The notes beneath the pieces were generated by a model. It saw only the letters and a program-made list of their open reading frames with translations, did not search any database and was not told the DNA's origin. From contig JAJEKV010000002.1 in assembly GCA_021234155.1 (NCBI GenBank), positions 2,628,178-2,692,177 on the forward strand: a stretch of 64,000 bases of DNA, read 5' to 3'. This document shows positions 8,148 through 49,981 of the stretch, one piece after another (position 1 is the stretch's first letter; the number at the start of each line of letters is the position of its first letter). The position numbers and the translations under genes are program-made. This DNA is from Isoetes taiwanensis (lineage: Eukaryota; Streptophyta; Lycopodiopsida; Isoetales; Isoetaceae).

Positions 8148-10959
8148 TTCTTCAAAGGACTTTAGCTCATCGTTCATGGCTGCTATCCATTTGTTTTGGT
8201 CATAACTTTGTATAGCTTCATCAAAGCTTTGTGGGATGACTTCATCTTCCAAGATGGCCATAATTTGTTCTGGTTCAAAAGTGACACTTCCTCTACTCCT
8301 CCCTAATTCATCTCTGCCATACAATTTTCCTTCTTCTAATTTTGCCTCCTCTAATAATTTTTCTACCTCAGTCTTTCTTTTTCTCTTTTCTACATGATGA
8401 TCAACCAACTCTTGCTCTTGCATTCTGATTGCTTCTGAAGCCTCAGTTTCTGCTGTGCTCAATTTTTCCTCTTCATTATCATCTGCATCATCTACTTCAA
8501 ACTTAGGTATTTCTGGTTTTGTTATCCCTTTGTGTATCTGCCCTTGTAAAGTATATTCTCATTGAACACCACATCTCTACTAATTATGACAGATTTAGTT
8601 TCAGGGACATATACTCTGTATCCTTTGGATTGCTCATCATACCCTACAAAAAATCCCACTTCAGCTTTATTATCTAGCTTTTTCCTTAATTCAACTGGTA
8701 CATGTGCATATGCCAAACAACCAAAGGCCTTTAGCCTTTCATAATTTATTTTCTTATTTGGATTCCAAAGAGCATTCGGAATATTTCCTTTTAAACTAGC
8801 TGAAGGCAACATGTTTTGTATTAACACTGCAGTTTGTAGTGCTTCTTCCCAAAGTTTGTTTGGCAGACCACTTCCTTTAATCATGGCTCTGACTGCATCC
8901 ATTATAGTTCTATTCTTTCTCTCAGATACCCCATTCTCCTGAGGAGAGTATCTGCAGGTTAGCTGCGTTTTAATTCCATGAGCTACACAAAAATATTTGA
9001 ATTGTTTAGCCAGGTATTCACCTCCTCTGTCAGACCTTATGCATTTGAGTTTAAGACTGGTTTCTCTTTCCATCTCAGCCACATATTGCTTAAATGCACT
9101 CAATGCTTGTGATTTTCTTGTCAAGCAATATGTCTTGCATTTTCTGCTATAGTCATCTGTGAATGTTATAAAGTATCTTTTGTTGGTTCTACTTTGCACA
9201 TTTAAAGGGCCACATAAGTCAGAATGCACTAACTCAAGAACTTGCTGAGCTCTTGCTTTACTTTTGGTAAATGGCAGTCTGTTTAATTTTCCTAAAACAC
9301 ATCCTTCAGAAATAATTTCATTTGGCTCACTGTCATGATAATGTATGTATCCTTGCTTCAATAACCATTTCAAATTTTTGTGATTAGTATGTGCCAGTCT
9401 TCTGTGCCATAAATCTATACTGTCTTCTTGTATTGCATTTATGCTATGATGCATAACATTGTCCATCTCAAATAAATTGCCAACTCTTTTAGCAAAGACC
9501 TTTAGTTCATTATTCAGGTACACATTACATTTGTCTCCTTCAAAAGTAACTTTATATCCCAAATCACAAAGCTGACTGACAGAAATTAGATTTCTGATTA
9601 TTGCTGGAAGACACAAGACATCTTCTATGTTTACAATATTGCCACTTAGATCTTCTAGCTGCAACAAACCCCTTCCTTTCACCTCTTGAAGGGCTCCATT
9701 GCCTACTTGAATTTTCCTAGAACTTGTAGTTGATATATTTTTCAAAAGCTCAGTAGATTGAACTACTGATCTTTCAGCTCCACTATCAACTATCAAGTGA
9801 TCAGATTTATTAGTTGCAATACTTTCATTCACAACAGCAAATTCAATGCTTACCTCATCTTCATCTACCTCCTCAGTAACTCCTCTGGTACTGACCTCCT
9901 GTTCTTGTGTAACATATGCCTTCTCATAGCCTCGACCTCTTCCCCTTCCAGATCTACCTCTACTAGACTCTCCTCTTCCTCTGGATTTTCCAAAATTCTT
10001 ATGGGTTGGGCACTTTGAAGCTACATGCCCTCTTCCTCCACATGTATAGCAATTAAATTCTTTCTTAAGCCTAGGGCATTCATTTTTGTAGTGCCCTAAC
10101 TCATGACAGTTATAGCACACAATTTTTTCCTTCTTCTTTACAAACAAGACTTCTGGAGTATGTTCATTTTGACTTTGTCTTAAAATCTTCTTTTGTTCCC
10201 ATTCAGTTCTTAAGGTAGTTTCAGCTTCCTCCCTAGATTTACATGAGTTTCTTATAAACAAGGCCAGAGTCTCATTGTCACCTATGGCTCTTGATATTTG
10301 CAAAACCTGACTTCTTTCAGAAATCACAACTCTAGCACCATTCAAATCAACTATTAAGTTGTCAAATTTACTAAAAAATTCTTCCACATCTTCATCCTCT
10401 CTTAATTTCAAGCCTCTTAATTCATTTTCAAGCAGATCTATCTGTGAGGAGGTTTTTTCCTCATAATGTTTCAACAGAAATTTCCACATATCTCTAGGTC
10501 CAAGAGATCTAAGCTTAAGGCGAATGGAAGGACTTACCTTGCATGAAATGATCCCTTGTGCTTCCTTGGACTTGACTTGAAGAGACTTTCCACCACTGGA
10601 GCCACTAACTCCTCCTCCTGCTGTGGACTGTGCTGCTGTGCCAGCTGCAGACCCTGTAGAATCAGATCTGCTCAAAATCCCTGCTTCTGCACTAACAGTG
10701 CCATTTGGATCTACCAGATCCTAGAGGTCTTCCACCTCCAACACATATTTGATGGCGTCCTTCCAAACCTGGAATCCTGGCCCACCTTTGTACACATCTA
10801 TAGTGTTCAATAGACTTGCAGCAAATCTACTAGACATAATGTAGCTCTGATACCACTGTTAGTATTTGAGCAAATATATTCTTGAATTTCAACTTAAATG
10901 TCTAGCAAGATTAATCTTCTACAACTTATTTTCTAAACATGTATAATTGTTATACAACA
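8129..10959 (-). mobile_element. Ty1/copia retrotransposon, 5' LTR through integrase, partial
   Basis: A fossil copia element on the minus strand. Reading leftward: a putative short 5' LTR about 10857-10959 (TG..CA ends, boundary uncertain), a primer-binding site at about 10845-10855 complementary to initiator tRNA-Met (TGGTATCAGAGC), and one long gag-pol frame at 8522-10675. That frame holds a gag domain, two CCHC zinc knuckles (CYNCHELGHYKNEC and CYTCGGRGHVASKC), an aspartic protease with VDSGAERSV, a GAG-pre-integrase HxxH/CxxC-like region and an integrase core (HSDLCGPL, then DDYSRK and QENGVSERKNRT). A further piece up to the start of the reverse transcriptase is at 8129-8462. The 3' half and 3' LTR are not present. 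Broken; age cannot be estimated with one LTR. Confidence 0.88.
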
Positions 10960-28007: not shown

Positions 28008-28012
28008 AATGA

Positions 28013-31000
28013 TATTAGTATATAACGAAATTGAGACTCTCAAAAGGCATCTTCCTTAATTGAAGAAAAGATAGCTTATACAGATTACATCGGCGCCTTT
28101 TTATAGAAGGGCCAAACCGCAATGCAGATATTCGGTATCTCCTCCAATTCAGGACGTCTGCTATACCAAACTCAAACGACTGATACTTGACTAAAACCCT
28201 AACACATGACAGATGGCAGCCATATGATAGAAGTCATTCTTGTTCACATGTTTAAGTCCAACACTCTTCCTCAAGATCGACTCTGTCATATTTTGTTACA
28301 ACAGTATATGAACTTAAACATAAATCAAACTACTCTCTTGACTGTAACAGAAAGAAAGAAAGAGACAAAGCAGTAATAAAATAGATGTTTTCCATGATGA
28401 TGCTACTAGTGCATCAGGTTTGTACCTCCCTTACGCTGGCCATTCCCATTTCTTCAATACATTCCGTATATCTCCTTTTTGGCAAAGGTTTCATGAGTAC
28501 ATCTGCAGTCATGACATGTGTTCTAAGGTGTTTGATAATAATTTTATTTTCATTTACCTTTTCTCGCGTGAAATAGTACTGCACCTCAATATGCTTGGCC
28601 TTTGTAAAGTTGCTGGTGTTCTTTACAAGGTTGACTGCTGCTCGATCGTCATTGTACATCACTGTAGGCTTTCTTTGATCTACTCCCAGATCTTTCAGCA
28701 ACCTTCTGAGCCATATAGCTTCTTTGGCTGCTGCACATATGGCCATGTACTCAGGTTCACATATGCTGATAGCAGTTGCCTTTTGCTTTTTGCTTGACCA
28801 GCTAATCACTCCCCCCGTCAACTTAAAGCAAAAGCCTATTCGGGACTTCCGTAAAGATGTGTCCCCCGTATAGTCGGCATCTGCAAAGCCTTGTAGCAAA
28901 GGAAACTGACCAGCTGTTCCATGATAAGTGAGCCCAAGATGAGGAGTACCTTTGAGATATCTCAATATGCGTTTGACTGCTTTGCCAGTGTGGAGCATCT
29001 GGTTTTTCCATAAATTGAGAAACAATGATGACACTTTCTGATATATCCGGCTGACTGCAAACCATAAGGTGCATGAGTGATCCAACAACACTTCGATAAG
29101 TAAGAGGTATCTTATGATCGAAGGGCATACATGCGTCTGAATTTGGATCAGAATTAAACTGGGTAGAAACAACATGTGTGTTTATCTCTTTGCAAGTGTG
29201 CATTTGGCATTTGTGAAGAAGAGATTCAACTCCTTTGGCTTGGTGGACTATGATAGTTCGATTAACGAGGTTTCTACTAATCTGCACCCCAAGGCAATAT
29301 TTCAAGGCTCCAAGATCCGTCATTTGGAACTAGGTTTTCAAAGCTTGCTTAGTTTACGCCATTAAAGCAGTGGAATTAGATGCCAAAATGAGGTCATCAA
29401 CATACAAAATCACCAGCTTTCCAGCATGCTTCACATAAACGTTCCAATCAGCCTCACTTCTAGAGAAGCCTTGGGCAGTGAAGAAAGAATGTATGGTCTT
29501 ATACCAAAGTCGGGGGATTGTCTGAGCCCATAAATAGCCTTGCGTAACTTGCACACTTTATTTTCTTGGCCTTGGGGTGCATACCCGAGAGGCTGCTTAA
29601 TGTACACTTCCTCATCTATCTTACCATGGAAGAACACTGATTTGACATTCATCTGTTGGAGGTCCAAGTCATATGATGCTGCTAGGGCCAGAACTGCTCT
29701 CACAGGCGTTAATCGTGCCACCGGTGCAAATGTTTCTTGATAGTCCACCCCTGCCCATTGGGAACACTCTCGAGCTACGAGCCGGGCTTTGTACCTGTTG
29801 ATATTACCATTCTCGTCATATTTTACTTTGTACAGCCACTTGGTGGTGATCATTTTTTTGTTTGGTGGCATGTCGACAAGCTCCCAAGTTTCATTGTGCA
29901 GCAGGGAGTCAAACTCCTCATCCATTGCTTGTTTCCACAACTTGCTTTCTGAACTGTGCATAGCTACTTTATACATAGATGGTTCCTCAATAGAAGCATT
30001 ACAATGCATGGCTATGAAAGCTGATCCTCGTGCTCGCCTGCTGCTTAGGTACTCCACCATATTTTTAGTAGGTTTCGAAGTTCTTGAGGATCTTCGAAGC
30101 GTAGGCTCTTCACGTTCATTATCACTGCATACCCCTTCTGACTCAGGCTCGGAAGGGAGATCATCTTCTTCAGGGGGAATATCTCTTGGTGAGTCCTCTA
30201 TGTCTGATTCTAAGTCACTTGAAGTTTCAGATTCTTGTTCTGTGGCTGTTATAAGAGGATCATACTCCAAGGGTTTATGATTTTTACCAATGCTAAAGTC
30301 TAGCTCATTGAATGATACACTCCGTCTCACAATCATTTTCTTGGTTGCAGGTACATATAGCTTGTATCCTTTCACATGCTCCCCATAGCCGATAAACATA
30401 CAAGGTGTTGCCTTATTCCCAAACTTGCCGGACTTTCTTTCTACTTTAAATAGATGCACATATGCTGTGCATCCAAATATTTCCATGCCCGAGACATCCG
30501 GCTTCCTTTTAATCCATGATTCCTCTGGCACAGTGTGTGGCACAGCCTTGGTGGGTACCATGTTAATGATGTACACAGCTGTATTTTTTTTTTCTTTTTA
30601 AGGACTTGAGCCTTTATTACCCAGAGAAAGTTACAAAGTACAATGGGGACAAAAAACTCAGTGGAGAGAATGTTCACAAGAGCAAAATCACCCCACCCAA
30701 ATACAACATCTAAACAATATGAAGAGCAAGCAAAATCTCATAAGTAAGCGTGAATCTAAAGATAGTGCTCCCAAATGCAACTCTTCACATCATTAGCAAT
30801 TGATGAGCACCTGAATGCTTTGACAATTCGTTGTTAGGCATCAAGAAGGATCTGTGCATCTGAACAAGCAAGACCTTTGAATATGAGAAGATTCTTTCTT
30901 TTCCAAATGGACCAAATGAACCATGCAAGAGCCAAATAAAACGCCCTTTTTGCCAAATTATCCCAACTACTTGGATAGACTGCTAATAACACCTGCTGGC

Positions 31001-33666
31001 TATTCAAATTGCAACGAAAGAGGCCTTCAAGCCACAACCAAACATGTCTGACATGTCTATACAGAAAGAAACAATGCTCAATTGTCTTGTCCCTCTGTGC
31101 ACATAAGGGACAAAGTGAAGATACCTCTGGACGAAATCTTTACACCAGAATATTAACGTGCAGACAACGATGAATGACTTGCCATCATAAAACAAATACT
31201 TTGGGATGGAGTAGTTTATCCCATACCCATTTCCATACTGCTTTCTGTCGATCTCTAGGAATGACCAAAGGCCACTTGGATGAAGGAGACAAGACGTCTG
31301 CAGCAAGTAAGACCTTGTACACAGCTGTATGTACTGCTTCAGCCCAAAATTTAGGCTATATGCTCTTAGAAAGGATCATAGACCTAGCACATTCCAGTAC
31401 AGTCCAGTTTTTCCTCTCCACAATGCCATTCTGTTGATGCTCGTGAGCCATCGAGGTCTCGTGGATAATACCTAGCCTCTTTAAGAATTCATCAAATTCA
31501 CCACTGTTGAACTCTCGTCCCTGATGACTTTGGATAGTCTTCACCTTTTTTCCTATGAAGTTCTCTGCCATGGCTTTCCATTGCTTAAAGTTCTCGAACA
31601 CTTCAGACTTATGGGCTAAGAAATATACCCAATTTTTTCGAGTATAGTCATCTATGATCAATAGAAAATACCTGGACCCACCTAAAGACTTTACCCGAGC
31701 AGCTCCCCATACGTCCATGTGGACCAGCTCTAGTGGTTGATTGGCTCTTGCTCCCTTTTTGCGTGTGATACAATTTCCTGCTCAGTTTAGCCAGCGCACA
31801 TCCCTCGCATATTCCTGGAGGGGCTTTAACTTTGGTTAGCCCTTTCATAAAGTTCTGGACCTGCATCTTTTTGAGGAACTGGAAGTTGGCATGTCCAAGG
31901 CGTTCATGCCAAGTTTGACTGGGATCTGTGCTACTTGTATTCAGCGCTGTTGATGCATCTTTGATTTTAAATTATACATTTTCCTCCTCCAAATGTGATG
32001 TATAATTGAGCATCATCCATTTTTGAAATTGAGAGCAGATTGGCTTCCAAGTCTGACACATAGAATGTATTTTTAAGCAGGACCTTTCCGGTGGCTAGTT
32101 TTAACATCATAGTTCCCCTGTCTTTTACACTTAACAGGTCTTTGCCTATTTTTACCTTCCATTGTCCTGATTCCTCTTTAAACTCCTGGAATAATTCATG
32201 TTTTGATGTCATGTGATCACTGGCTCCAGAGTCAAGGAGCCATGTCCCTTGTGCAGTTTCTACCATGAGAGCCACCGCCTCAATTCCACATGAATTATTC
32301 CATGTATCATCTTCTTTTGGCTGACAAAGGATGGCCTTTATAGCATCTGCAACCTTTGTAAGCATGCTTATGATACTGCTGACTATCCAAGGGGATATCA
32401 TTATGATATTGCTTTGGTTTCTATCCAGCTTACACGTTACGAATGCACATGCTACAGACACAAGCGAATCACCGCTGGAGCTTCGATCAGAGTTACCAGA
32501 CTCACTCACCTTGGAAGCTTTGTGAGCATGGACTCTTCTCTTCTTCATTTCATCTTTGTTAGCCACCACCACCACCTGTTTCTTCTTTCCCTTAGAATCA
32601 TTTCTCTTATTGTGTTTAGGACAATCCCTCGCAATATGCCCATGTTTGTTGCAATTGTAGCATTTACGGGTCTCTACATTCTCTTGTCTTCCAACAAGTG
32701 CGTGGCCTTCAACTTGTCCTCCTTGCTTGGCTCCTGCCTGATTGATCTCCTCCATTAAGATCTGCTGCCATGGCCATTCCAACTCTACATGTTCTACAGA
32801 TCCTATCAAATTCTTTACGTTATTGAAGGTTGCAGGCAATCCTAGGAATAGAGCACCAATAATCAGGTCATTTTCGAGCCCCTTTTCCATACCTTTGAGT
32901 TGGAGTGCAGCTGCCTTAATTCTGGAAATGTATTCTTCTGCTGATTGGCAGTCCTTTAGCTTTGTGATAAAAACCACAGAGTACAAGTTAGCTTGTTGGG
33001 AAAAGTGTCTCTTCTTGTAAATCCTCGAGATATATTCCCAAGCAGCTTGAGCACTTTCAACTGCCTCCATTTGTGCAAACATGGTATCATCTAGATACCG
33101 CATCATCCTATTCCTTGTCTCCCAGTCACGTTGCATCCATTTGACCAAGGCTTGTCTGTCTTCCACAAATGTACCAGGCTCTTGTTTGCCTTCTCCCTTA
33201 ACAACCTGAGCTGCTATGAGTCCCGAGGGCTTGCCGAGCACTGGTCTTGGCTCATTACCGGATACTACATGCCATAGTCCCTTCTCAGAAAGCTTTTCAT
33301 GGACCTTGATAAACCAGTAAAAGGCGTTATCATGAGAAAGTTTCTGTATTTTTCCGATTTCGTTCTTGTGCAGCGCAGCTCCTTACCCGAATGGATCTGT
33401 CTGCTCTGATATCATATTAGTACATAACGAAATTGAGACTCTCAAAAGGCATCTTCCTTGATTGAAGAAAAAATAGCTTATACAAATTTCAGCGTTGCCT
33501 TATTATAGAAGGGCCAAACCGCAATGCAGATGTTTCGGTATATCCTCCAATTCAGGAGGTCTGCTACACCAAAATCAAACAATTGATACTTGACTAAAAC
33601 CCTAACACATGACAGATGGCAGCCATATGACAGAAGTCATTCTTGTTCACATGTTTAAGTCCAACA
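28013..33666 (-). mobile_element. Ty1/copia retrotransposon with both LTRs, broken
   Basis: A fossil copia element on the minus strand. LTRs are at 33415-33666 (5') and 28013-28263 (3'), about 251 bp each, flanked by the 5-bp target duplication AATGA at 28008-28012 and 33667-33671. The primer-binding site at about 33398-33413 is a variant of TGGTATCAGAGC; a purine-rich tract abuts the 3' LTR. Parts from right to left: gag with knuckle CYNCNKHGHIARDC and protease WLLDSGASDHMTS (31967-33241), integrase with QNGIVERKN (31356-31866), copia reverse transcriptase (29354-30576) and RNase H with SICEPEYMA (28414-28900). It is broken in several places and carries a LINE at 30585-31315. The LTRs differ at roughly 8 percent by eye, so it is old. 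Confidence 0.93.
30585..31315 (-). mobile_element. 5'-truncated LINE inserted in the copia element
   Basis: A minus-strand LINE tail of about 730 bp with a poly(A) (T-run at about 30585-30593) and a perfect 15-bp target duplication TGTACACAGCTGTAT at 30570-30584 and 31316-31330. It encodes the end of the zf-RVT region: WKWVWDKLLHPKVFVL, IHRCLHVN and, at 30834-31037, LLAVYPSSWDNLAKRAFYLA followed by WFIWSIWKRK. Same family as 20269-21427. It is younger than the copia element that hosts it. Confidence 0.93.
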
Positions 33667-34248: not shown

Positions 34249-34859
34249 GGAAGCGGATGCCGCCACTGAAGCCTGAGGCACCTGTTGATATTTGGGGTTC
34301 TTGGCATCACCTTGCAGCAGCAGTCCATGACTGCCGGATGCCACAAGGCTGCCACAAATGCTCATGGATCAACAAAAGAAGGTGGGAAGAAACTCCAAGA
34401 ACAAGAACAAGAGAAAGAATGAACAAAACAGAATCATATTGATGCTCCAAAAGGAGGTGCTCCAAAACGTGAGCAAAAACCTAAACAATGAGAGGAAATG
34501 CTCTCTCTAAATAGTAGAGCAAAACCCTAACCCTAAATGACATCTCACCTACCACAGATCTAGGCTAAATCTGGGCCATAGATTGTGGGGTCCAATATGA
34601 CAAATACATGTGGCCTATGCCACCTACCACATATGTGGGCTAAATCTGGGCCCTAGATCAAGTGGTCCAATGTGATAAATACATGTGGCCTATGCCACTC
34701 ATACATATGTTTAGCCCAAAGGGCTAACACTCCCCCCCACCACACCAAACTATATAGCAGGTTAAACATTTACAACAGTGTCCAAAGTGAGGGGAAATAA
34801 TGAGAATGTCGCCGAAGTCGTGACCCAAAAATGCCAATGTCGATGAAGTACAAAAATCG

Positions 34860-35300
34860 TAAGAGGTTGAGAAGGCTGTCACCACTTCTCTTGAGCTTGC
34901 CACAAGCTCCTTTAATTCCATATAAGTCAAATCTAATGTTGAGAAGGCTGTCACCACTTCTCATAGAGCTTGCCACTTAGCTCCGAATACATGCGCCAAT
35001 CAAAGTGTCTTGTAAGGAGTTTGAACAAAAATTTGGAAACAAAAATTGTTGAAGGGGCGGAAGGCCCTAAGTCATCTTCACGCCATTGTTGAACTTGAAA
35101 AGTTGTAACAAGGAGTTGAACTTGAAAGAGGTAAAACATAAGTGATTGAAGGGGCGGAAGGCCCTAAGTCATCTTCACGCCATTGTTGAACTTGAAAAGT
35201 TGTAACAAGGAGTTGAACTTGAAAGAGGTAAAACATAAGTGATTGAAGGGGCGGAAGGCCCTGAGTCATCTTCACACCATTTGTTGAACTTGAAAGAGGC
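34860..35300. repeat. Tandem repeats in the outer element
   Basis: A 97-bp unit beginning GAAGGGGCGGAAGGCCCT starts at 35051, 35148 and 35245 (about 2.6 copies). To its left a 71-bp unit with GAGAAGGCTGTCACCACTTC occurs twice (about 34870 and 34941). Confidence 0.9.
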
Positions 35301-35569
35301 TCAACCGCCATGTATTATGGACGGCCGAGATGGATTGAAAAAAATTGTCTCTCAAACGCCCTGCATTTGGGTCGATGAGATAAGCTTGAATGTTGAGAAA
35401 AGATTGCTGAAAAAAGGCCCACACACGCCATAGGGCTGTGTGAGGTTTGTTGGTACAAGGGTGCAAAGAAGATCTCCAAGAATGCGGCAAAAGATGAGGC
35501 GTCCCCCAAAATGTGCCAAAAATATGCTCCAAAGACTTCTTGCATGAAAAAAAGAATTGAAAGGTGTGC

Positions 35570-36130
35570 TCGAAGTCACGGCGTGAGGGGCCGTGACAAT
35601 TTTGTGTTGGACTCACGCCATGGGGCCATGAGCATGTGGCAAAAAACCGTCGATAAAAAATGTCTTTAGATCTCACGATGAAAATATGCCACGCCTTAAT
35701 GGGCCGTGGGATGTGATGTGGTTCACGCCAGCAAGGGTCGTGAAAGAAAATCAAATTGTGCCACGTCGTGGGGCCGTGGTTATTTGAGGACGCCACACCG
35801 TGGGGCCGTGGGCTGAAGCTTTAAACACACGCCGTGGAAGGTCCACGCCGGGCGTTTTGAATCCTCGGCCACGCGATGGCCGTGGGCTAGGGTTTTGTAG
35901 ACCGGAAGCCACGCCGCGATGGCCGTGGGTCGCCGCTGATGCCGACAAAGCCCGGAATCCGCCCGGGTGCGGGATGATCCTCCAGGAAGTGTGGCCCGTG
36001 ATGGGTCGTGGACGCCAAGAGCATGGACGCCGCCATCGGCGTCGGGGGGTCGCACCGAAGGTCCGCGGAATAAAATTTGTCCACGCCAAAGGGCCGCGGA
36101 AACGTTTTTGTGTGCGCAGGTTTTGCCGCC
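35570..36130. repeat. Dispersed short motif array in the outer element (CACGCC/GGGCCGTGG)
   Basis: Between 35570 and 36130 a degenerate motif of the form ACGCCRTGGGGCCGTGR recurs about ten times at 40-70 bp spacing. It raises G+C sharply and creates overlapping open frames on both strands. The motif is partly self-complementary (CCACG with CGTGG). Confidence 0.65.
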
Positions 36131-39100
36131 GGATGATTTAGTTGGGGCATGCCATGCCCGTAGATAGATTGTTAACCGTGAGCCTTGCTTCAAAAGTTGG
36201 AGTCACGAAGTCAATGGGGTGCTGGTCAATGAAAAATCTGCGCTTGGCGCCGCTTTAGTTCATCCTCGATTGGTTTGGGGCAGCCAAAGCCGATAAGAAA
36301 ATTGCGCGAGCCAAGTATCTGCCCCGAGAAGTTGCTACCTGTGTGATGCCGGATATGGCAAATCAATTCATGGTATCTAGGTTGAGACGTTGATGAGCCG
36401 GCTACAGATATCGCAGACGAAGCAGCTACTTAACACGCCTTGTGTCTTTGATGCGGCATAAAATATTTTTACTCCTTGTGCAAATCGGCTGTTCCTGAAT
36501 GCTGTTTTGCTGCATTTAGAATGCCATAAGTCATTGCATGTGATATTTGCAGATGTCTTGAAGATCTGGCCATGAATGCTCAGCAGAAACAATCTCTGAG
36601 CTGGGAGAAAAAGAGGAACCAGGGGATTTTGATTTTGTGACGTTCCACATATTTATACGCATATTTAAGTATAAATACGTGACACGTCACTATGAATAAT
36701 TAATAGCACATTAATTATTCATAAGCTAAGGTTAGCTATGTTAATAATTAAATTATAAAGGTGGAAACCTAACCAAAACCCTAATTCGAATTTAGGGCTT
36801 ATCCTAATATTAAAAAGGGCTAAAATACCAAATTAGTTAATTTATGACATGCCACCTGGCCCAAATCGATTGGGCAAGGTAGGGTTGCCATTTTGGACAC
36901 CCAAATTAGGGCTTTTGTGCCCCACCAATTGGGAGCAATTGGGGATGGAGGAGGAGGAGCAACAGCAGCGCCCTCAAGTTAGTCGAGATGGAGCAGCCAA
37001 GACCGATTTGACTTAGTCAAGAGGTTACTATGTTGATTTATAGCATAGCCTCCTACGTGGTGTGTTCTCTCTCTGCTTTCTTTGTGGTTTACCCCGTTAG
37101 GCTAACCCTTGATTGATATGGTGAGTATTCTTTATCTCTAGTCTCCAGACGTGCTTTGGTTGATGGTTTAGTAGTTCTTTGCTTAGTTAGCACTCTCAGG
37201 AGATGGGGATTACGGGGTAGAGACCGAGCCCATGTATTGTAGTATGCCCTAGATAGAGCCCCAGATATTCCCATTAGTTGGGCGGCACATTGCACAAGAG
37301 CCCACCCCGGTCGTGGATGCTATGGAGTGACTTAGCACCAAATAAGGGACACAGCAGGAAGTGGGGGTGGGGTCTTGCACGAACATAAAAGGCTCCCGCG
37401 ACTCCTATAGTGGACTAGGCCTAATAGCCGCCGGTGAGCTAGGCGCGATCCAGCCGGGTATGGGTCCGGACACTCCACGGGTGTAGTTGGTGTGACCCGC
37501 ATGGGGCACCTTGCACTTTGAGTAGATTTAGGGCGCAGTAAAGTCGGTACGGATGCGGGGTCGCCGATGCGGCACGATTCTCTAGTCCACCCATGGAACC
37601 ACCGTGGATCCCGAAGGGGACGCTTCCCCGACCTCCGCCTCATCTGGACGGGACTTCATGAACCCCTCGTAGGCTCCTGGGGTGATACCTTGAGTCCGCG
37701 TGATCCCAAGGCTATAGTGACGCCCATAGCGATTGACTCATCCGCAGTGTGCACAGTGAGGGGCGGATGGAGTGGACAACCCTAGCCGATGTTCTATGCC
37801 GCCCAACGCCGTTATACCTCCTCGCCGATCTCTTGAGGCGTCGCCGCCGTCACCATCCTCATCGGAGTCCGAACCGGGTAGAACCTCGGGGTTTGGGGTG
37901 TTTTCTTTAGGTTTAGATGCATATTCTTTGTCGCTGGTACTTGGATGGATGGATGCCACCCTTCGTGGTGGTTATTTATATATGATTTATGATGTGTGCT
38001 AACATGTATTCACGCCTCAATTTGGAGCCCCATTGAAGGCGTGCGTAATGAATGACCTTTCCGTGTCCTTCTTTTCGCATCATATTATAGATGGCCCGAA
38101 ATAGACCGGAGGGTTCCCCGCTCATGGCGAGATGGTCATGGGAGGGGAAAGTCCTCGCATGTATAATGCCCGAGGGTCGATATGTTCGTGGAGCCCACAA
38201 AGGTATCGAGCCATTGATTTTGGTTGGACCGAATCATAGCATTCCACTCAAACCCTAACTCGCTAGTTCGGTAGTTAGGGGAGAGAATTAAGCAAGAGTG
38301 ATTGTTTAAGTCTTTCATGTTTGATTTAGTGCTAGGTTAAGGTAATAGACTGTAATTTCTAAGGAAGTCTAGGCCGCTGAGAGGACCCAAGTTTCGAGGG
38401 GCCATAACTTTTGTAGGTAGCTCCTGATGAAGGCGGTAAAACGGCTCCAATGGATCGGCACCTCTCAAATACCCTAGGGGCACGCCTCCCGAGGCAAAAA
38501 AACAACAACAGCCGAAAACAAAAAAGGGCTCGACGTATCCGGGGGTGTTTTTGAAAATAAAACGCCAGATAAGCATCGCCTAATACTTTCCATACGGTCC
38601 GGGCCAGATAAAAAATACGCCACCGCTTTTTTAAAAAAAATAATTTTTTCCATTTTTACGCTTTTAAACCCGTGACCTCCAACTTCCAACCCAACACTTT
38701 TTCCATCTTGCCAACTATCTTTATATAGTACATACATGTTCTATTACTTTGTTATACATATCTAATATTCTCGTTTTGTCCGGTTAGCGGTTTTTAAGAA
38801 AAGGTACATCATGGGATTGAACCCCTGACCTTATGCACCCAAGCCAACACCTTTACTAATAAGCCAACTTCTTTCTTGAAGTAATATAATGCTTTTTCTA
38901 ATACTTATAGTGCATCTATTCCATATCTAAATTAGAGGCATGTCTTTGGTAAACCCACCGAGGCAACAACTCCTCTTGAAGCAAGCTCTTCCGCCATAGC
39001 CGGAGTGCTCTTTTCTTGCCATTAGCCCATGGGAGACGACCTCTCTCCGCTATAGTCAACCTGGATAACCTGCTAACCATATATAAAGCTAGTATCCCCT

Positions 39101-42100
39101 AGGAATAAACCGACCAAATGGCACGACGTAACCTAGCAAGTCCGCCAACTTGTTATGACAACATCAACTCATTTGGTGGGACTAATTCGAATTTAATTAA
39201 CAACGACAGGGCAACTTCCTAGAATAGCAAATGGGTATTATATCCTTGATATTCTTTTATCACGGTAATAATACCCGCCATCTTTTCTCGACCTATAACT
39301 TTAATTATTTTTCCTTTGGTAGATGCCTTGATAACACAATTTCTTCGGCCTTGCCATGATTCAATCCATACTACATTCATATGCTTTATATTAGACCTTA
39401 TTCGACGTTATATAAGTAATGTTTTATAGACATATTTATAATTAACGGTGTCTGTCTCTCTAGTGTCTAAACCTTGACTCGCCTCATTTCCCAAAGAAAG
39501 GATTTCTTTTCAACCAACCAACCCGAGGGACTCCCATGCAAAGACCCTCTAAACCATGGGTAGCTTTAATCCTACCACGGTTCACTACTTCTTCTCAATG
39601 GTCGTGTTCTTTTTGTGGACCATTTTCCCGCACTCCTGTACCAACTCAGAATAATGCAGTGAGTGCTTGTGTTAGAACCCCCATAATAATGTCAACACTT
39701 TGTGCCGAACTTCACCATCTATATGGATGTCATTAATTATCTCAGGTCACACACGCTGTCAAAGTGACAAAGAGCCTACCCTCTTTGGAGTTGTTCTCCG
39801 CACATTCCAATGCCACCCAACCATTGTTGATTACTCACCTCCTTCTAGGGTACCTAGATAAGGTCCGAGCCAAATGTTTTCAACCATTATTTTAATGCCT
39901 AGACGCCTTTTAAGTCCCAAAAATGAATCTACGTGATTCCAAAGGATTACGTGAATATCCCAAAGGACAAGCACCACCCAAAGACCCCCTCAAGGTAGGC
40001 CTCCTCTATTCGGAGATCTTGTGTTCAAGTCTTTGGGGTCAGCTATATGTCCTCGGGGACACCGCCAATGTCATGGCATATAAATGCTATCTACCTATCT
40101 ATCTATTTAAAAAAAGGTCCTTGGTGAACTCAATTCACCATATTGTCCAAGACATGGACGTCTTCTTCCCTAAGCCATGCACCAAATCTTTAAGGAGTTT
40201 TTCACTCTCGCTACCTTTCAAGCCGCTAAGTCTACCTTTTGTATATTAGCAATGACCACCCTTCATGTTAGATACCTTTCTATCCAGGTTGCTAAATATC
40301 ATGCATCGTGGTCCCTTTTTTCACAATATGTTTTCTACGCCTATGGCCAATTTTCAAAGATCCCGCCCTTACATCCGCCACATCGTATACAAATCATCCT
40401 TTAGTTGTGATCTATATTCAATAGAGTCACCAATCCAATTACTCCTTTTATTTTATCCGTTAACCGCCTTGTGGCTTCCAAGCCGCTATTATATGGCCCT
40501 TATGTTGTAAACCTACCTATCATTGGGGGTTATGATCCAACGTTGTCCTACATCCTCGAAATGTTAGTCATTACATTTCTCTGTCATGATGTTATGCTGC
40601 TGTTCTAGCATTCCAAATGACTTGGCATCTTCATTTAAGCCATAGTCATGGCCTAAGAGCGGGTGAGCCTTCGTAAATTACCTGGAGTCATCAAGGTGCT
40701 TGCCTTGTATTTTGTAAGCCTTTCTACAATTACCTACGTCTAATATAACCCGGGCTTGTATCAATGTTCGAGTCCTGTATATGTTAACTTGCACCCCCCC
40801 ATGTAACCCATGGCGTCAACTCTGCCTGATCTAGGTATGGATCATGTGGGAACGCTAGTCTTAGGTGTCTATGCAAGACACATCCGAACATTTAGCAGGT
40901 AACTGTTATTCGCTACTTATCCTAGAATTGTATTATTGTACTACTCAACCCCACTACCTTAAGCTTTATTCCATTGGCCGTTGACATTTATTTCCAAGTG
41001 CCAACTACCACATCATACCCTAGCACGCAACGGATTGACGGTCCTTTGCACATTTCGAACGATCTCCGTGATCCTTCATCAAGAACTTTAGGATACGCCG
41101 TTTTCCTCCGGTGTCGCCACCTAAATTACCTCCCCTAAGATGTTTATCGTGATCTCATACATGGTATGTACATAATAAACATATCTCCACATCCCACAAT
41201 GCTAGAGCTCTGCTCTAACTTAGCTATAGTGTAAGCTTGGTAGTTCCTTGAAACAAAACCTATTGCCTATGTACCTTTATCCTGTGGCTGTGCCACCTAC
41301 TTCCCAAATGGACAGGGGCCAACTCTATGTTGGACTTGTATATGCTGCCTATATTTGGATAGGGTCTCTACTTATTTCAACCATTCCTTTAGTGCCTGAT
41401 GGTACTTTAACCCTGTACATAACCTATGGTTTCCCCCACGGGATTATGCCATAATTTCGGGGGCTATTACCCACACATGCAGCTTTTCTAAAGGCTTTTT
41501 CATACCACCCATGCTTAGGATCCTTTATGTTCCATACCACCCATACTTAGTTACAATTAACCTATTTTTTATTAAAAACCCAATGTTTCAATCTTCGTTA
41601 GTAACCGCCATATGATTATCCAATTCCTTACCCTCTTAAGAGTTTCAAAGTCAGAATCTCTAACGGGTCTATGCCTCAAGGCAACGGATCCTCCACCTTC
41701 TACTTCAGTACCTGCAATTGTTCCTCGCGAGTAGCGTAACTCTTAAGATATATGGACTACTAGTCTATATAATCTCACTCCTTGTAATCTACACACCTCG
41801 TCTTGATTTTTATCGGGACTTGGATTGCAATGTATTGCCCTCCTCTCGGTTATCCCTAAAAGTATAATCGTCAAAGTCATCGCATTCCTTCTTTTCTTCC
41901 ATCGTGGGATGCGATATTTTATACATCTTCTTATTTTCCAAAACTAAATAAATGCTCTCAAATATAACAATGAAGTAACTTCATTGGTATCTAGAACCTT
42001 TGAGTAGCTAAGCTCTCATTAGCGGTTATTCCAACACTGCTCCAACCATCCCTGGATGTTTTTGAATGTAACATCACCGTATATGCTAGACTTACTCTAG

Positions 42101-43404
42101 CTATTCTCGCCATTTAAACTCTTTTCATCTCCCTTAGTACGACGATATCTAAGATAGTCAACTTCAACCATTGGGATAACTTGAATGCTTATCTCCGTAA
42201 AGCATACCTAACCCAATATCTTCGTGATATAAGCATATCATTACGCCATTCTTTAAACCTTGTCAAGCAATATTTCCCCACTACATAAATATTCTACTAT
42301 CTTTTAATATGATATACATCCTAATATCACAATCGACATCCTCGATAGGATCACCACTATAGTATTTGATACTACTAAATCCTTCCTACATCCAGGACCG
42401 CTACGTTATATGATATAGTAACATGTGTGCACCAACCCTAAGTCTAGACTCCTATGTAACTTGTTGACATAGGCATCTAGCTATATTCATACTTGCGGCC
42501 AACTTATTTCCCCAACTTGGTTATCTAGTACCATATACATGTTGTGGTTTCACACCACTAACCTTACTTTTGCCTTCGTCCTCAAGCTCTAGTCATAACT
42601 TCCACAGGGGCAAATGCCAACCTAAGTCCCTTGTGGACATGTTTCATCTCTAGTATAACAACTCTTATCTTCATTTATAGGGAATGTGAACTAAAAGTTC
42701 TACTATATATCCTATCTTCTTTTAGTTATGTTTTACTATTAAATGGTCCTAGTACACATATATCAACGGGAGTTACTCCTCGATACACACACGATACCAA
42801 GTCCGAGCACATCCTCCTTGGTGAGATGTTCATTGGGTGCCTACCTTGTTCATACTCCGGACTTTGGTACATTCAACGTGTCATTCCAAACTTCTATACT
42901 TGAAACGTTGTTTACAACAACTTTCAAGCACCTCTTCTCTCCCACTTGTCGTGTGGGTACATTACTTGCCTTCCTAATGTATCATTACTTCAAGGTCAAC
43001 TTCCATTCATAATCTAGCTTCACCAAAGATCCAACATACCTTGCACCTTTTCGATGATTCTGCTTGTTCCTACCAATTGTCGCCTTCTCTTGACCTTATG
43101 TAGAAATTACGCTCCACACTATCCTCTAGTTCATATATAAAGATCTCGATGCTCCCAACATAATATGTGTCCGCTTTCCTTAATTTATACCATGCATAAT
43201 GGTCATGCATTTGACCAATGTCATTAAAAGCGTGATCCACGGGTTACGTGGTCTTCTTAGTCGCCTATAATCTTGCGCTTTTATTTCACGCTAGAACATC
43301 AATCTCTTTACCAAACACAATGTATATGTAATTTTATAATCCATAGCTTATGGATCGATATCCTCATACACCATGACCTTCAAGGTCCCATGGGGGGATG
43401 ATTT

Positions 43405-43433
43405 AATATATTTATTTATTTATTTATTTATTC
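43405..43433. repeat. TTTA microsatellite
   Basis: A short run of TATT/ATTT units inside the interior of the nested LTR element. Confidence 0.8.
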
Positions 43434-44859
43434 TCCGCCATTCCGCGAATCATACCTCGATTCAAGTAGCAATAGTTATAAAGTGTCGGACATGCTATAC
43501 CTTCACCACCATTGTCAAAACCTACACTTCTAAAGTGATCTCCCTTTCATGAGCTGGGTACTTGTAATCCAGTTTCCACCTTAGCATAGTACCTCCTTAA
43601 CATGGTCTATAGTAGATAATCATAAACCACTTCTCCAACGTATATATGGTGCTATCCAAATTTTCTACATTGAATAGCAATCTAGATGCCGCATAATAAA
43701 TCAATCCTCGTAATTATTAGGTCCAGTATTTCACTTAGATACCAAACATCGTCATACCAATTTTCTCGAGTATCCATCCAAAATAGGGATATTTTAACAC
43801 TCCTTATTCCCAACATTCAGCGCTTCTACTTCGAGTAAGAGCCCAGGACCTGCTCAGTCATCGCCATATAACAGGCTCAGCACAGACCAGGCATGCTTTC
43901 GATGCTTCCGCCGTAGACACCATGGTCACAACTGGTCTTCTGTGATATAGGACGTTTGCATAGCCATAGCACTGCCGGATAGCGACCGGTGTGGTACCAA
44001 TTACGTCGAATGTATATGTCAGCTGTACCTGTGCCCTGTAAATATAGCAGTGTCTGTATGTGTGATAAATTTACGAAAATAGCAATAAGATAAATAAGTA
44101 ATTCAAATGTAAGGATATCGGGACGTCTAACCAATGAATTAATATGTGTCCTCATGTGATTATAATCTATGCTAAAGATAGAGGGTGTGAGTGTGGAAAC
44201 ATTAACGATAATCCAAAGGAGCAAACTATTTAAACATATAATCAAATATAATAGAAGGAGATAAGTATGTATGTCTTACACAAACTTCGGAGGGAATAAC
44301 GAGACTTAGATTAGGTTATAACAAGGTTATGAATAATAAGTCATGAACAACGCCCGCAATCTGACTTAATATTAAAGTATATAGGTAAGACTGCCCGATA
44401 CAAAGATAATATATAGTTGTATTAAAGGATAAGTATAACTGCCAGGACCTATTAAATAATCGAGGATAGGAACATAATGAGTTCTTAAAAACTCAGAAAA
44501 AAAATAGGAAAACAAAAATTTGCTACAAAATTAAAGTAGGGATGGCTGAATGAAATGAATTACAAAGTGAAGCGAAATATAATACACCTACACACACAAG
44601 TTAATATCCTTAGAATGACTTTCTACTAAACAAAGGCGAGGTTAATAACTCTGCATTATAATATAACAACAAATAGCAGCTTCTTTATATCTATACCTAT
44701 CTTTAATATATAATCACACTTACGTATGTATAGAAGGAACGATTTCTAAAATAGATAGATCGTGAACTCGCCACCACCGATAATGAAACAAAGGAGATCG
44801 TTCACTTTGACAGGTCCTAACCGATGATCACGCCCGATCTATCCGTGACATTAAAAATC

Positions 44860-44992
44860 TCTTCTTCTTCTTCTTCTTCTTCTTCTTCTTCTTCTTCTTC
44901 TTCTTCTTCTTCTTCTTCTTCTTCTTCTTCTTCTTCTTCTTCTTCTTCTTCTTCTTCTTCTTCTTCTTCTTCTTCTTCTTCTTCTTCTTCTT

Positions 44993-45022
<30 letters not shown>
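44860..45022. repeat. (TTC)n microsatellite, about 54 units
   Basis: An uninterrupted CTT/TTC run of about 160 bases close to the 3' LTR of the nested element. The poly-Ser and poly-Lys frames across it are artefacts. Confidence 0.98.
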
Positions 45023-45023
<1 letters not shown>

Positions 45024-48000
45024 TATCCCAAAGTTATAAATTGCACATTACAAGTCATTTCAAACTTGATCACTTTGAACATGACAACGCCTCAGGTGAC
45101 TTATAATCTCACGCCATCTCTTAAGGAGGGAGACTTCCTTCCAATGTATGATGTGTTGCCCCGCAACAAGAGTAATCTTGATGCCGAGGACGATCATTTT
45201 TAAGGTGGGGGAGAATGTGACGCTCCACATATTTATACGCATATTTAAGTATAAATATCGTGACACGCCACTATGAATAATTAATGGCACATTAATTATT
45301 CATAAGCTAAGGTTAGCTATGTTAATAATTAAATTATAAAGGTGGAAACCTAACCAAAACCCTAATTCGAATTTAGGGCTTATCCTAATATTAAAAAGGG
45401 CTAAAAATACCAAATTAGTTAATTTATGACATGCCACCGCCCAAATCGATTGGGCAAGGTAGGGTTGCCATTTTGGACACCCAAATTAGGGCTTTTTGTG
45501 CCCCAATTCGAATTGGGAGCAATTGGGGATGGAGGAGGAGGAGCAACAGCCAGCGCCCTTCAGTTAGTCGAGATGGAGCAGCCCAAGACCCATTTGACTT
45601 AGTCAAGAGGGTTACTATGTTGATTTATAGCATAGCTCTGGGTGTGTTCTCTCTCTTTTCTTTGTGGTTTACCTCGTTAGGCTAACCCTTGATTGATATG
45701 GTGAGTATTCTTTATCTCTAGTCTCCAGACGCGGCTTTGGTTGATGGTTTAGTAGTTCTTTTGCTTAGTTAGCACTCCTGAGATGGGGATTACGGGGGTA
45801 GAGACCTCTGAGCCCATGTATTGTAGTATGCTCCTAGATAGAGCCCCTCAGACATTATTCCCATTAGTTGCGGCTCAGTGCACAAGAGCCCACCGAAATC
45901 GGGATGCTATGGAGTGACTTAGCACCAAACAAGGGACACAAGCAGTGAAGTGGGGGTGGGGTCTTGCACGAACATAAAAGGCTCCCCGAGACTCTACAAA
46001 GGGACTAGGCCTAATAGCCGCCGCTGAGCTAGGGCGATCCAGCCGGTATGGGTCTGACACTCCCCAGGTGTAGTTGGTGTGACCCGCATGGGGCACCTTG
46101 CACTTTGAGTAGATTTAGGGCAGTAAGCCTGCACGATGCGGGGTCAGCTGGAGCGCACGTATTCTCTAGTCCACCCATGGAACCACCGTGATCCCGAAGG
46201 GGACGCTTCGACCCCGCCTCATCTGGACGGACTTCATGAACCCCGTAGTAGGCCTCTCGGGGGTGATACCTTGAGTCTAGCATTATCCCGAAGGTTATAG
46301 TGACGCCATAGCGTGATTGGACTCATCTCGCAAAGTGTGCATGTGGAGGGGCGGATGGAGTGGACAACCCTAGCCGATGTTCTATGCCATATAACGCCAA
46401 AGTTATACCTGCCTCACGATCTCTTGAGGTCGAGCCGCCGCCCATCCTCATCGAGTCCGAACCGGGTAGAACCCGGGGTTTGGGGTGTTTTCTTAGGTTT
46501 AGATGCATATTCTTTGTCGTTGGTACTTGGATGGATGTGCCACCCTTCGTGGTGGTTATTTATATATGATTTATGATGTGTGCTAACATGTATTCACGCT
46601 TCCGCGACGTAGGAGCCCCATTGAAGGCGTGGGCCGAATGACCCCTTCGTGTCCTTCTTTCGGGCATCATATTATAGATGGCCCAAAATAGACGGAGGGC
46701 CCTGCTCATGGCGAGATGGTCGCCATGGGAGGGGAAAGTCCCCGTATGTATACGTCCGAGGGTCGTATATGTTCAGGGAGCGTCACAGATTTTGTGTGCA
46801 AAGAAGGGCTTGCAAAAACGCTGATGCTCTGATGATTGAGGTGAGTCGTGAGGAAGCCAAATAGATGGGATCATATTGTTGAAAAATGGCTCAGATTTGA
46901 GGCAACCGAAAACTTTGTGAAAATGGGTAGGTATTAGAAAAAAACGTTGCAGTGCCATTGAGATAGCCATGATTGGCGGCAGACATTACTCCCAGAAACG
47001 AAACATGGAATAGAGCCTCTGCTCTGGTTGTGTGAACAAAGCAATATCAAACTTGCGGAAAAACTTCTGAACAAGAACCCTTGTGCTTGAATCTGCAGAT
47101 GGATTTCAGAACAGAGCTAAAAATTTCCTCTGGTGCTTTTGCAGGTACAAGGGACGGTGAAGTTGATTCGATTCGCCTGGAATATGGCTGATGAGACCGT
47201 GTATTTCAGCCCAGAAATTCTGAAAGAGCCGTTGGGCCTCCTTTGTTTTTGTGGCTCGGTTGCGGTGGCTGAGAAAAAAATCCCAAACATCCTTGAAACT
47301 GCCCATTACCAGATTAGAAACACTTGAAGGTGCCTATTAGCAGATCAGTGTATGTGCTGACAGTGCAAGAACGCCTTGTGTTGGTTTGAACCATAGGGCT
47401 AATAAATGCCCTTGTTTTTACAGAGATAGCGCCAAGGCTGTAGAGCGAAATCAGGTTGTGACGATAGACCCCTTCACCTGAGGAAGGAAAATACTTCAAC
47501 CAAGAAAACTGATGGGCAGGTGGACGGAGCAGAAGATATGAACAGAGGAAAAAATATCCCTGTAGTATCCCTAATGGGATTGGTGCCTCGTTCAGAACGA
47601 TGGGGCTTAGCCGAAGATAAGAAGGGCACCCAAAAGAGAAGATCCCTGAAGAATGTGTACAAATATGGCTGCTTGATAGAAATATGCACAAAACAGAGTA
47701 ACGAGATTTCCATGATATAGGAGGAAAAATGTCGATGAAAACCCAAGTGTTTGAGAAAAAGAATTGCGCCAGAAGTTGTCCCGGATTGGTCAAATATCAT
47801 AGAAGATGGTGACGAAAAACAGGCTGAAGACCCGAAGAGCATCTCCAGCACTTTTTTAGACAAGAGGCAGATATAAGAGATAGCAAGCCAAAAAATTTGT
47901 CGATGAAGAACCAAATAGGAACTGTATTTTGCCAAAAACCAGTTTTGCCCCAAATATGGGCAAATATCAGAGAGGTGAATCCAAGTAATTGTCGATGTAG

Positions 48001-48539
48001 AACCAATATTTTTGCTGAAAAACTTTTGGAGATGCTTGAAAAGAAAACAAAGGATGATCATGAGCCCAAGAGACCCCGGCATGAGGCGCCAGTGTTGATA
48101 TTTGGGGTTCTTGGCATCACCTTGCAGCAGCAGTCCATGACTGTCGGATGCCACAAGGCTGCCACAAATGCTCATGGATCAACAAAAGAAGGTGGGAAGA
48201 AACTCCAAGAACAAGAACAAGAGAAAGAATGAACAAAACATAATCATATTGATGCTCCAAAAGGAGGTGCTCCAAAACGTGAGCAAAAACCTAAACAATG
48301 AGAGGAAATGCTCTCTCTAAATAATAGAGCAAAACCCTAACCCTAAATGACATCTCACCTACCACAGATCTAGGCTAAATCTGGGCCATAGATTGTGGGG
48401 TCCAATATGACAAATACATGTGGCCTATGCCACCTACCACATATGTGGGCTAAATCTGGGCCCTAGATCAAGTGGTCCAATGTGATAAATACATGTGGCC
48501 TATGCCACTCATACATATGTTTAGCCCAAAGGGCTAACA

Positions 48540-49981
48540 ACACCTGTTTTCTTCGAGCTCCAACTGTTTCTAGTAAAAGATCACAGCTTAGATCACAGCT
48601 TGCCCATCATTTTGCACAAACTTCGCTTGAATAGGCTTTGCTGCGATTCCTATGAAATTGGAAAGGAACTGAAAGATCCGAGCCCAGCCACATGGTGCTG
48701 AAAGCTTGAAAACGAGGAAATTTATCCCCATCGATCCGATTTTTCTAGCTTTATGGCTTGGTTCTGCGCCGCTGCAGTAAACGGCACCGCTGAGGCCATA
48801 CCCATCATCAGATCCCTTGTTTTATTGGGCCCGAACCCACCCACCGAGTTGGAATTGAAAACCCAAAGATAATGTGCATCAAATTCATGCCAGGCGGTAA
48901 AAATCCGCCTTTGGGCACAAATTCAGAGCTCAAATTCGAAGCAAGGAGAGGATTCGACCAACTGGGTCAGACTGGCATGCTCTGCCGGCACAACAACTCT
49001 GTTTCTTTCTATTCCATCCATCTATTCTATCTACTACATACACCACCAAGCCAAAAACCTAGTCTTTTCCTGCACCATGCCACAACCCCCACCATACATC
49101 ATGCCCCTGTATCATCGGTTTTTGGCCCCCAGAACCCCAAAAACCAGGTACGGATGGGTAAGGGCCTGCCAGGTGATTTGTGGCGGATCTGAAGAAAAAA
49201 GGATGCGGTTTTGCTCTAAAATCCTCCCCCCAAACAGGGAATCTTCTTCTTCTTCTCCAGAAGCCTTTGCCTGCTGCATCAACCCATTCAACCCACCAAC
49301 ACCAATACGCCCCTGCCCCTCTGTTATTCCTCTTCTTCCAAAAACCAAGTACGCATGGTTTTCAACCTAATTTCAATGCTCTAATTATTGTTTATTTTTC
49401 CTTGCTGCCTGGTATCCCAATTGGACTCCTCTCCTTCTTAATTGGACCTGAGTCATGTATAGAAGTTGTATGAAGTGGCCCACTTAAAAAAATATTACAA
49501 CTAAGTTAGATAGATTCCAATGATGAGTCATGCGTTAAGCATTGCCATTTGAAGTTATTGGATGTGCCTAGAAAATGGAAAGTCAATTTGTTTTTCAACT
49601 CTGAATGCATTTATATTTTGCGGAGATACTAGGCTATAAATTAATGTATGGTTAGCATTACTAGGTCCAATACTTAACTGTTAAAATGGCATTTTCCCTT
49701 GGTTAATAAGGTTTTATTTAAATGTTTGCTTTTAAACAAACTTCTAACTAATGCGAGCAAAGTGAATCTCAAAATTTGAACTTATTTTGAGAGCCTTGAA
49801 ATAGCATTATTATCTTCAATATTCAATATTCAATATGAGGGCAAAGCATCATGGCTTGAGATATGCTTGAAGATGTGTTTTCAGGTTGGTTCCAAGTTGA
49901 CCCATGTAGATAATAAATGAAAATAAGGGATAAAAAACACCGCCGGGTAACCTGGGTATCAACGGAAGACCAACCACAGCT
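48540..49981 (+). promoter_or_regulatory. Upstream region of the histidine gene
   Basis: No gene recognised. It lies between the right LTR of the outer element and the ATG of the ATP phosphoribosyltransferase gene, so it should hold the promoter and 5' UTR. A pyrimidine- and C-rich stretch at 49000-49360 has two similar segments (CCAAAAACCAGGTACGGATGG and CCAAAAACCAAGTACGCATGG at about 49138 and 49339), whose short frames look non-coding. No TATA box could be assigned with confidence. Confidence 0.4.

Follow-up and report, generated by a model that had tools for sequence, protein, structure and literature searches.

How can a retrotransposon that has jumped into another one look far older than its host? 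This question is raised by a nest of two long terminal repeat (LTR) elements in a stretch of 64,000 nucleotides from the lycophyte Isoetes taiwanensis (assembly GCA_021234155.1, contig JAJEKV010000002.1, positions 2,628,178 to 2,692,177; hereafter the window). An outer element at 34283-48539 of the window is interrupted by an inner element at 36636-46787. The nest is real, as the original prediction had it: a perfect GATTT duplication lies directly outside both inner termini, which read TGTGACG at the left end and CGTCACA at the right. The divergence figures from which that prediction started, about 3 differences in 447 positions for the outer LTRs and well over 50 indel-rich differences for the inner ones, are also borne out. 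Aligned over 447 bases, the outer LTRs differ by 2 transitions and 1 transversion with no indels. The inner LTRs (1525 aligned bases, including a few past the 5' LTR end) differ by 71 transitions and 74 transversions, 145 substitutions in all, and by 44 indel events comprising 87 bases. Over all substitutions the contrast between the two pairs is far beyond chance (Fisher p = 2e-13). Judging from the assembled sequence, the inversion is nevertheless very probably not biological: with a probability of about 0.92, the inner LTRs look older than their host as a result of uncorrected systematic Nanopore errors near CG and CHG sites (H being A, C or T).

Counting substitutions and indels separately in both pairs thus upholds the contrast, but the differences are not spread as mutation would spread them. 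In the inner pair, scrambled segments are separated by identical runs that reach 116 columns. At 5 bases or fewer from a CG or CHG, 132 of 887 bases are substituted, compared with 13 of 640 elsewhere (p = 6e-20), and 11 of those 13 lie within 3 bases of another difference, leaving 2 that are isolated. Such sites are plentiful in the inner LTR, with 114 in 1,572 bases, and number 10-12 in the outer LTRs. When isolated substitutions away from CG/CHG are compared, the two pairs are equal (2/640 inner and 1/338 outer, p = 1.0), and for that reason no age inversion is left. The proposal that the inner element is older than its host therefore stands for the raw counts and fails for age, which is only apparent. 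Gene conversion had been offered as one way out, with truly old inner LTRs and outer LTRs homogenised after the insertion. The raw counts of 3/447 and 145/1525 would suit it, but the equality of isolated substitutions makes it unnecessary, and it does not account for divergence that sits in CG/CHG neighbourhoods, with a transition-to-transversion ratio of 1, clustered scrambling and a different aberrant LTR at each edge (see below); it is scarcely credible here. The data are compatible with an inner element as young as its nesting demands, and carry the relative ages of the two elements no further.

The genome (1,658,258,908 bases in 1110 contigs) was searched for further copies of the inner element and for further LTRs of its family, both searches ranking matches by their likeness to the window copy, so that the sample is not random. 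The copy search listed 47 matches, with 40 of 1684 candidates scored, and 10 copies besides that of the window were taken, in part. The LTR search, with 40 of 7781 candidates scored, listed 41 matches, of which 30 were made into loci. Five of the 20 stretches taken (L010, L013, L022, L027 and L028) held no full-length LTR by the filter used, and 8 of the 30 LTR loci duplicated LTRs already in the set. The 37 distinct LTRs that remained were typed by the sequence adjoining them before and after, with L001-L008 left out, as 18 5' LTRs, 15 3' LTRs and 4 untyped. Among ten LTR pairs, the window's included, nine have an exact target duplication of 5-6 bases, so each should represent a single insertion whose LTRs began identical; the exception, L011/L012, was kept in the pair alignments and context counts. 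A special route of arrival that does not yield identical LTRs, another of the earlier suggestions, is unlikely in view of these ordinary duplications and of the mirror-image noise described below.

The comparison with other family copies agrees with the window pair: in 8 of the 9 other pairs the differences are likewise concentrated at CG/CHG. Across the ten pairs there are 24-146 substitutions near such sites and 0-14 elsewhere, and three of the nine others have no substitution at all in 557-580 bases far from CG/CHG. At the low end (24 substitutions near CG/CHG) stands L051/L046, the C911 copy, which is nearly free of this noise and is the one exception in ten. Context counts over nine pairs (the window and eight others), with L026 as reference, show how the noise falls away with distance. 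Within-pair differences occupy 230 of 1206 cells at CG and 283 of 1017 at CHG, then 299 of 2934 at 1-2 bases, 131 of 2880 at 3-5, 69 of 2484 at 6-10 and 110 of 3771 beyond 10. The corresponding rates are 0.28 for CHG, 0.19 for CG, 0.10, 0.05, and 0.03 beyond. When L053 is the reference and L052/L053 is the pair omitted, they are 0.24, 0.18, 0.10, 0.06 and then 0.04 to 0.02. A nanopore senses about five bases at once, and a reach of about 5 bases is what such a reading would be expected to give. The internal region behaves similarly: between 38500 and 40000, comparison with 7 other copies gives 13.8-18.1% substitutions near CG/CHG and 2.9-5.0% far from it, part of which is true divergence between copies.

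A concentration at CG and CHG is also what true decay would produce, in which the 5-methylcytosine of a silenced element is deaminated, so that LTRs rich in CG/CHG age faster than those poor in CG. The ordinary repeats of the window lend this some substance, having a weaker CG/CHG excess and mostly transition-dominated differences: in four other repeat pairs the transition-to-transversion counts are 20:8, 13:1, 32:14 and 37:9, with 2-5 indel events each. Some of the 145 substitutions could have arisen in this way. Deamination gives point transitions, however, and not 44 indel events, transversions in equal number or changes several bases off the site. In six other pairs of the family the transition-to-transversion counts are 53:51, 50:35, 45:41, 31:21, 75:86 and 30:22. 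The ratio of near to far substitution is 7.4 for the inner LTR pair as against 1.6-3.2 for five control repeat pairs in the window, which have 0-5 indel events in each class. Nor can deamination spare the outer edges of an element in mirror image, and as the general explanation it is highly improbable.

Further evidence comes from these edges. The first 60 bases of an LTR adjoin host DNA only in 5' LTRs, and the last 170 only in 3' LTRs. Variation was measured within the 18 5' LTRs and within the 15 3' LTRs and compared with 5000 label shuffles; as some rows are pairs from one insertion, the shuffle counts are not exact probabilities. Over the first 60 bases, variation is 0.007 among 5' LTRs and 0.067 among 3' LTRs, a 9-fold reduction in the former that 14 of 5000 shuffles equalled. 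Over the last 170 bases the relation is reversed, with 0.165 among 5' LTRs and 0.056 among 3' LTRs, a 3-fold reduction in the latter (43 of 5000). In the middle, at 700-1200, there is no difference (0.176 and 0.197; 882 of 5000). The errors thus fade beside the host flanks.

The same asymmetry can be followed in the window pair, in which the aberrant LTR at each column was judged against 31 other LTRs. Odd columns in the 5' and 3' LTR number 1 and 4 in the first 200, 22 and 18 at 200-600, 46 and 54 at 600-1200, 24 and 2 at 1200-1400, and 40 and 1 after 1400; 35 more columns are unclear or odd in both. An identical 16-base terminal string is found in 11 of 15 3' LTRs, 7 of 18 5' LTRs and 2 of 4 untyped ones. 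Four of six other pairs have 0-2 differences in their first 320 columns and 84-151 in the remainder: none and 151 (of 1272) in L011/L012, none and 84 in L025/L026, 2 and 124 in L015/L016, and 2 and 128 in L017/L018. No model of age, conversion, mutation or transposition route known to us predicts such a mirror image, because both LTRs are copied from one template at one time; it is what short-read polishing would give if it worked inward from the flanks. The suspicion that the inner element had been assembled with unusual error is in this way strongly supported, by the clustering at CG/CHG together with the mirror-image edges. One could still imagine a real lycophyte process that rewrites the methylated CG/CHG neighbourhoods of one retrotransposon family through small indels and transversions, in the interior only and with the outer edges spared, although we give it almost no weight.

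The errors appear to be partly recurrent and partly private. Among the 18 5' LTRs, the primer-binding site (PBS) region has its usual form, which we take to match initiator methionine tRNA, in 8 copies, the same one-base-shorter form in 9 (the window's included) and another form in 1, so that a single aberrant form is shared by copies from different contigs. After position 1200 the window 5' LTR has 64 odd columns. In 30 of them its letter reappears in one or more of 17 other 5' LTRs, and in 20 it reappears in one or more of 14 other 3' LTRs; recurrence in single columns may reflect an inherited variant. The other 34 odd columns occur in no other 5' LTR. They would suit a reading in which random errors of single raw reads had been put in by gap filling, in place of systematic base-calling error, and long-read gap filling with LR_Gapcloser was indeed used for this assembly according to the portion of its description considered here (PMC8566536). 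Raw-read errors would strike all contexts, however, and would not leave stretches of up to 116 columns perfect, nor the pairs free of far substitutions, nor one PBS form repeated in half of the copies; gap filling as the main source is thus very unlikely. Downstream of the LTR, L025 and L043, on different contigs, have the same non-PBS sequence, with 27 bases in common over the displayed part; it may be a second type of leader, or the two may have a neighbour in common.

Finally, the two inner LTRs might derive from different elements, through recombination or a chimeric join, in which case their divergence would not be an age at all. Family members do differ from one another by a similar amount in four comparisons. 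The perfect GATTT duplication and the matching duplications of the family speak against such an origin, as do the 12 differences of the window pair in its first 320 columns, well within the 0-16 of six other pairs, and it can be given very little credence.

Systematic base-calling error remains as the preferred explanation, and a sequence of steps can be proposed for it. Plants methylate CG and CHG heavily in transposons. The cytosines of the inner LTRs would be methylated, and modified cytosines in both contexts would be miscalled in R9.4.1 reads, yielding substitutions and small indels over some 5 bases around the site. Being largely systematic, the miscalls would survive in the read consensus, and Illumina polishing would repair them only near non-repeated sequence, to which short read pairs can be assigned. 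Clean LTR edges would be the product of such polishing, provided that short reads can be anchored in the flanks by unique sequence. The inner LTRs, long, rich in CG/CHG and belonging to a family of dozens of copies, would keep an unpolished interior; the outer LTRs, short and poor in sites, would come out nearly correct. The inner element would then be a later and fairly young insertion, as its position says. The documented procedure fits these steps. As far as the portion of the published account considered here goes (PMC8566536), Guppy 3.1 was used for base-calling of the Oxford Nanopore (ONT) R9.4.1 reads, minimap2 and miniasm for assembly, racon and pilon (with 2x150 Illumina reads) for polishing, and LR_Gapcloser for filling gaps. 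The v1 assembly described there has 1658.30 Mb in 204 scaffolds and 909 contigs, and appears to be the genome analysed here, to which these methods would apply. A Brassica nigra ONT paper, in the part considered, expects more error in low-complexity regions where Illumina reads match poorly (PMC7419231).

Several observations weigh against this explanation. The same Brassica nigra assembly is given as 99.986% accurate before short-read polishing (PMC7419231). Ordinary repeats of the window show an excess near CG/CHG as well, of 1.6- to 3.2-fold, and the Copia LTR pair in the window has 10 transitions to 8 transversions. Pair L051/L046 has hardly any excess (CG 8/144, CHG 5/108, more than 10 bases away 10/371). 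Counting all far substitutions, clustered ones included, the inner pair exceeds the outer (13/640 and 1/338, p = 0.04), and in one family pair far divergence reaches 2.1%, so some pairs carry real age. As for the edges, six regions were tested without correction, and in three pairs the first 320 columns are not so clean: 16 differences against 71 in the rest for L019/L020, 12 against 196 for L023/L024 and 12 against 220 for the window. At 1300-1400 the 3' LTRs are not the less variable ones (0.082 and 0.070; 3105 of 5000 shuffles), and the clean zone common to the family thus extends over only some 170 bases, which might be shorter than read-pair polishing could give. The 34 private columns show, too, that not all errors recur, and that short LTRs are clean in general is a supposition drawn from the outer pair.

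The features of the nest are collected in the table. The inner element, of 10.15 kb and on the + strand, has paired direct LTRs with TG...CA ends, its duplication on both sides, a purine tract directly before the 3' LTR and a PBS, though an aberrant one. It is accordingly classed as an LTR retrotransposon and no finer. None of 23 non-repeat open pieces of at least 60 amino acids from its internal region has a Pfam match at the cut-off. From the internal region of the outer element 10 of 27 such open pieces were sent to Pfam, with none reaching the cut-off, and the best match among the 23 inner and 10 outer pieces (E 0.0093) lies below it. The absence of coding domains from the inner element may in part be an effect of false indels that break frames. 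The CTT-repeat tract, of more than 160 bases, lies at about 44860-45022, shortly before the 3' LTR. The outer element is probably on the - strand, to judge from a C-rich tract after its left LTR and a PBS-like tract before its right one; its target duplication is imperfect. It also contains, at 35037-35295, a direct repeat of about 162 bases (95.7%) with a spacing of about 97 bases.

Table. Features of the nested elements, in coordinates of the window.
Feature	Position	Strand	Evidence or remark
Left LTR of outer element (3' LTR if the element is on the - strand)	34283..34729	-	98.5% self-match with 48079-48539; TGTT...AACA ends
Right LTR of outer element (its 5' LTR)	48093..48539	-	self-match and LTR pair alignment
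Outer target-site flank GCACC	34278..34282		right flank ACACC at 48540-48544, one mismatch
Inner target duplication GATTT, left copy	36631..36635		exact match with right copy
Inner target duplication GATTT, right copy	46788..46792		exact match with left copy
Inner element 5' LTR, 1564 bases	36636..38199	+	outer (left) edge clean; middle and inner (right) edge noisy
Aberrant PBS region of inner element	38200..38213	+	compared among 18 5' LTRs of the inner family, this one included
Internal region of inner element	38214..45215	+	between the two inner LTRs
Inner element 3' LTR, 1572 bases	45216..46787	+	middle noisy; last 170 bases beside flank clean

Elsewhere in the window, a Copia element at 28009-33666 on the - strand has LTRs of about 256 bases that are 92.6% identical, with gag, integrase and reverse transcriptase domains in several frames. 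At 8525-10720, also on the - strand, an unbroken open frame of 732 amino acids carries Copia gag, integrase and SH3 domains, and hence not all repeat-derived stretches of the window are noisy. Between 19675 and 26084, three stretches (594, 434 and 1184 aligned bases) each occur twice within 6.4 kb at 94-96% identity, their differences being mostly substitutions.

The standard way to date retrotransposon bursts is by the divergence of their LTRs. In an assembly like this one, that clock would fail for long LTRs with many CG/CHG sites and may be close to right for short, site-poor ones, and relative ages can invert even within one nest, a warning against dating such elements in assemblies of the same type. 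Isolated substitutions away from CG/CHG would offer a less biased measure of age, and the comparison of edges within 5' and within 3' LTRs, which needs no reads, could separate artefact from true divergence in other assemblies. The noise may also affect the repeat libraries of this assembly, its repeat content and any judgement of coding capacity made from it. Repeat content is given as 38% for I. taiwanensis (PMC8566536) and 63.15% for a HiFi assembly of I. sinensis (PMC10541799), in the portions of the two papers considered; noise in repeats may depress the annotation of the former.

The closest parallel is with the barley Morex V1-V3 assemblies (PMC8290290). There, in the part of the account considered, the average age of the same element family comes out higher in the poorer assemblies, and nucleotide differences between versions are concentrated in LTRs. 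The authors hold scaffolding and error-prone short-read gap filling responsible, whereas the CG/CHG signature and the 5'/3' mirror image of the inner Isoetes element suggest errors of a long-read consensus that was left unpolished. A study of Nanopore base-calling in plants (PMC9749173) names lineage differences in methylation as a likely cause of the loss of accuracy in plants under one general model; the part considered concerns read accuracy, and the words "CHG", "polish", "repeat" and "systematic" gave no hits in its text. As an element, the inner insertion resembles the large non-coding LTR retrotransposon derivatives (LARDs) in its 10.15 kb length, its LTRs of some 1.57 kb, its PBS region and polypurine tract and its 5-base duplication, and in the lack of a Pfam domain in its 23 internal open pieces. 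It may differ from them in that false indels could have broken true frames, so that its non-coding state may be only apparent.

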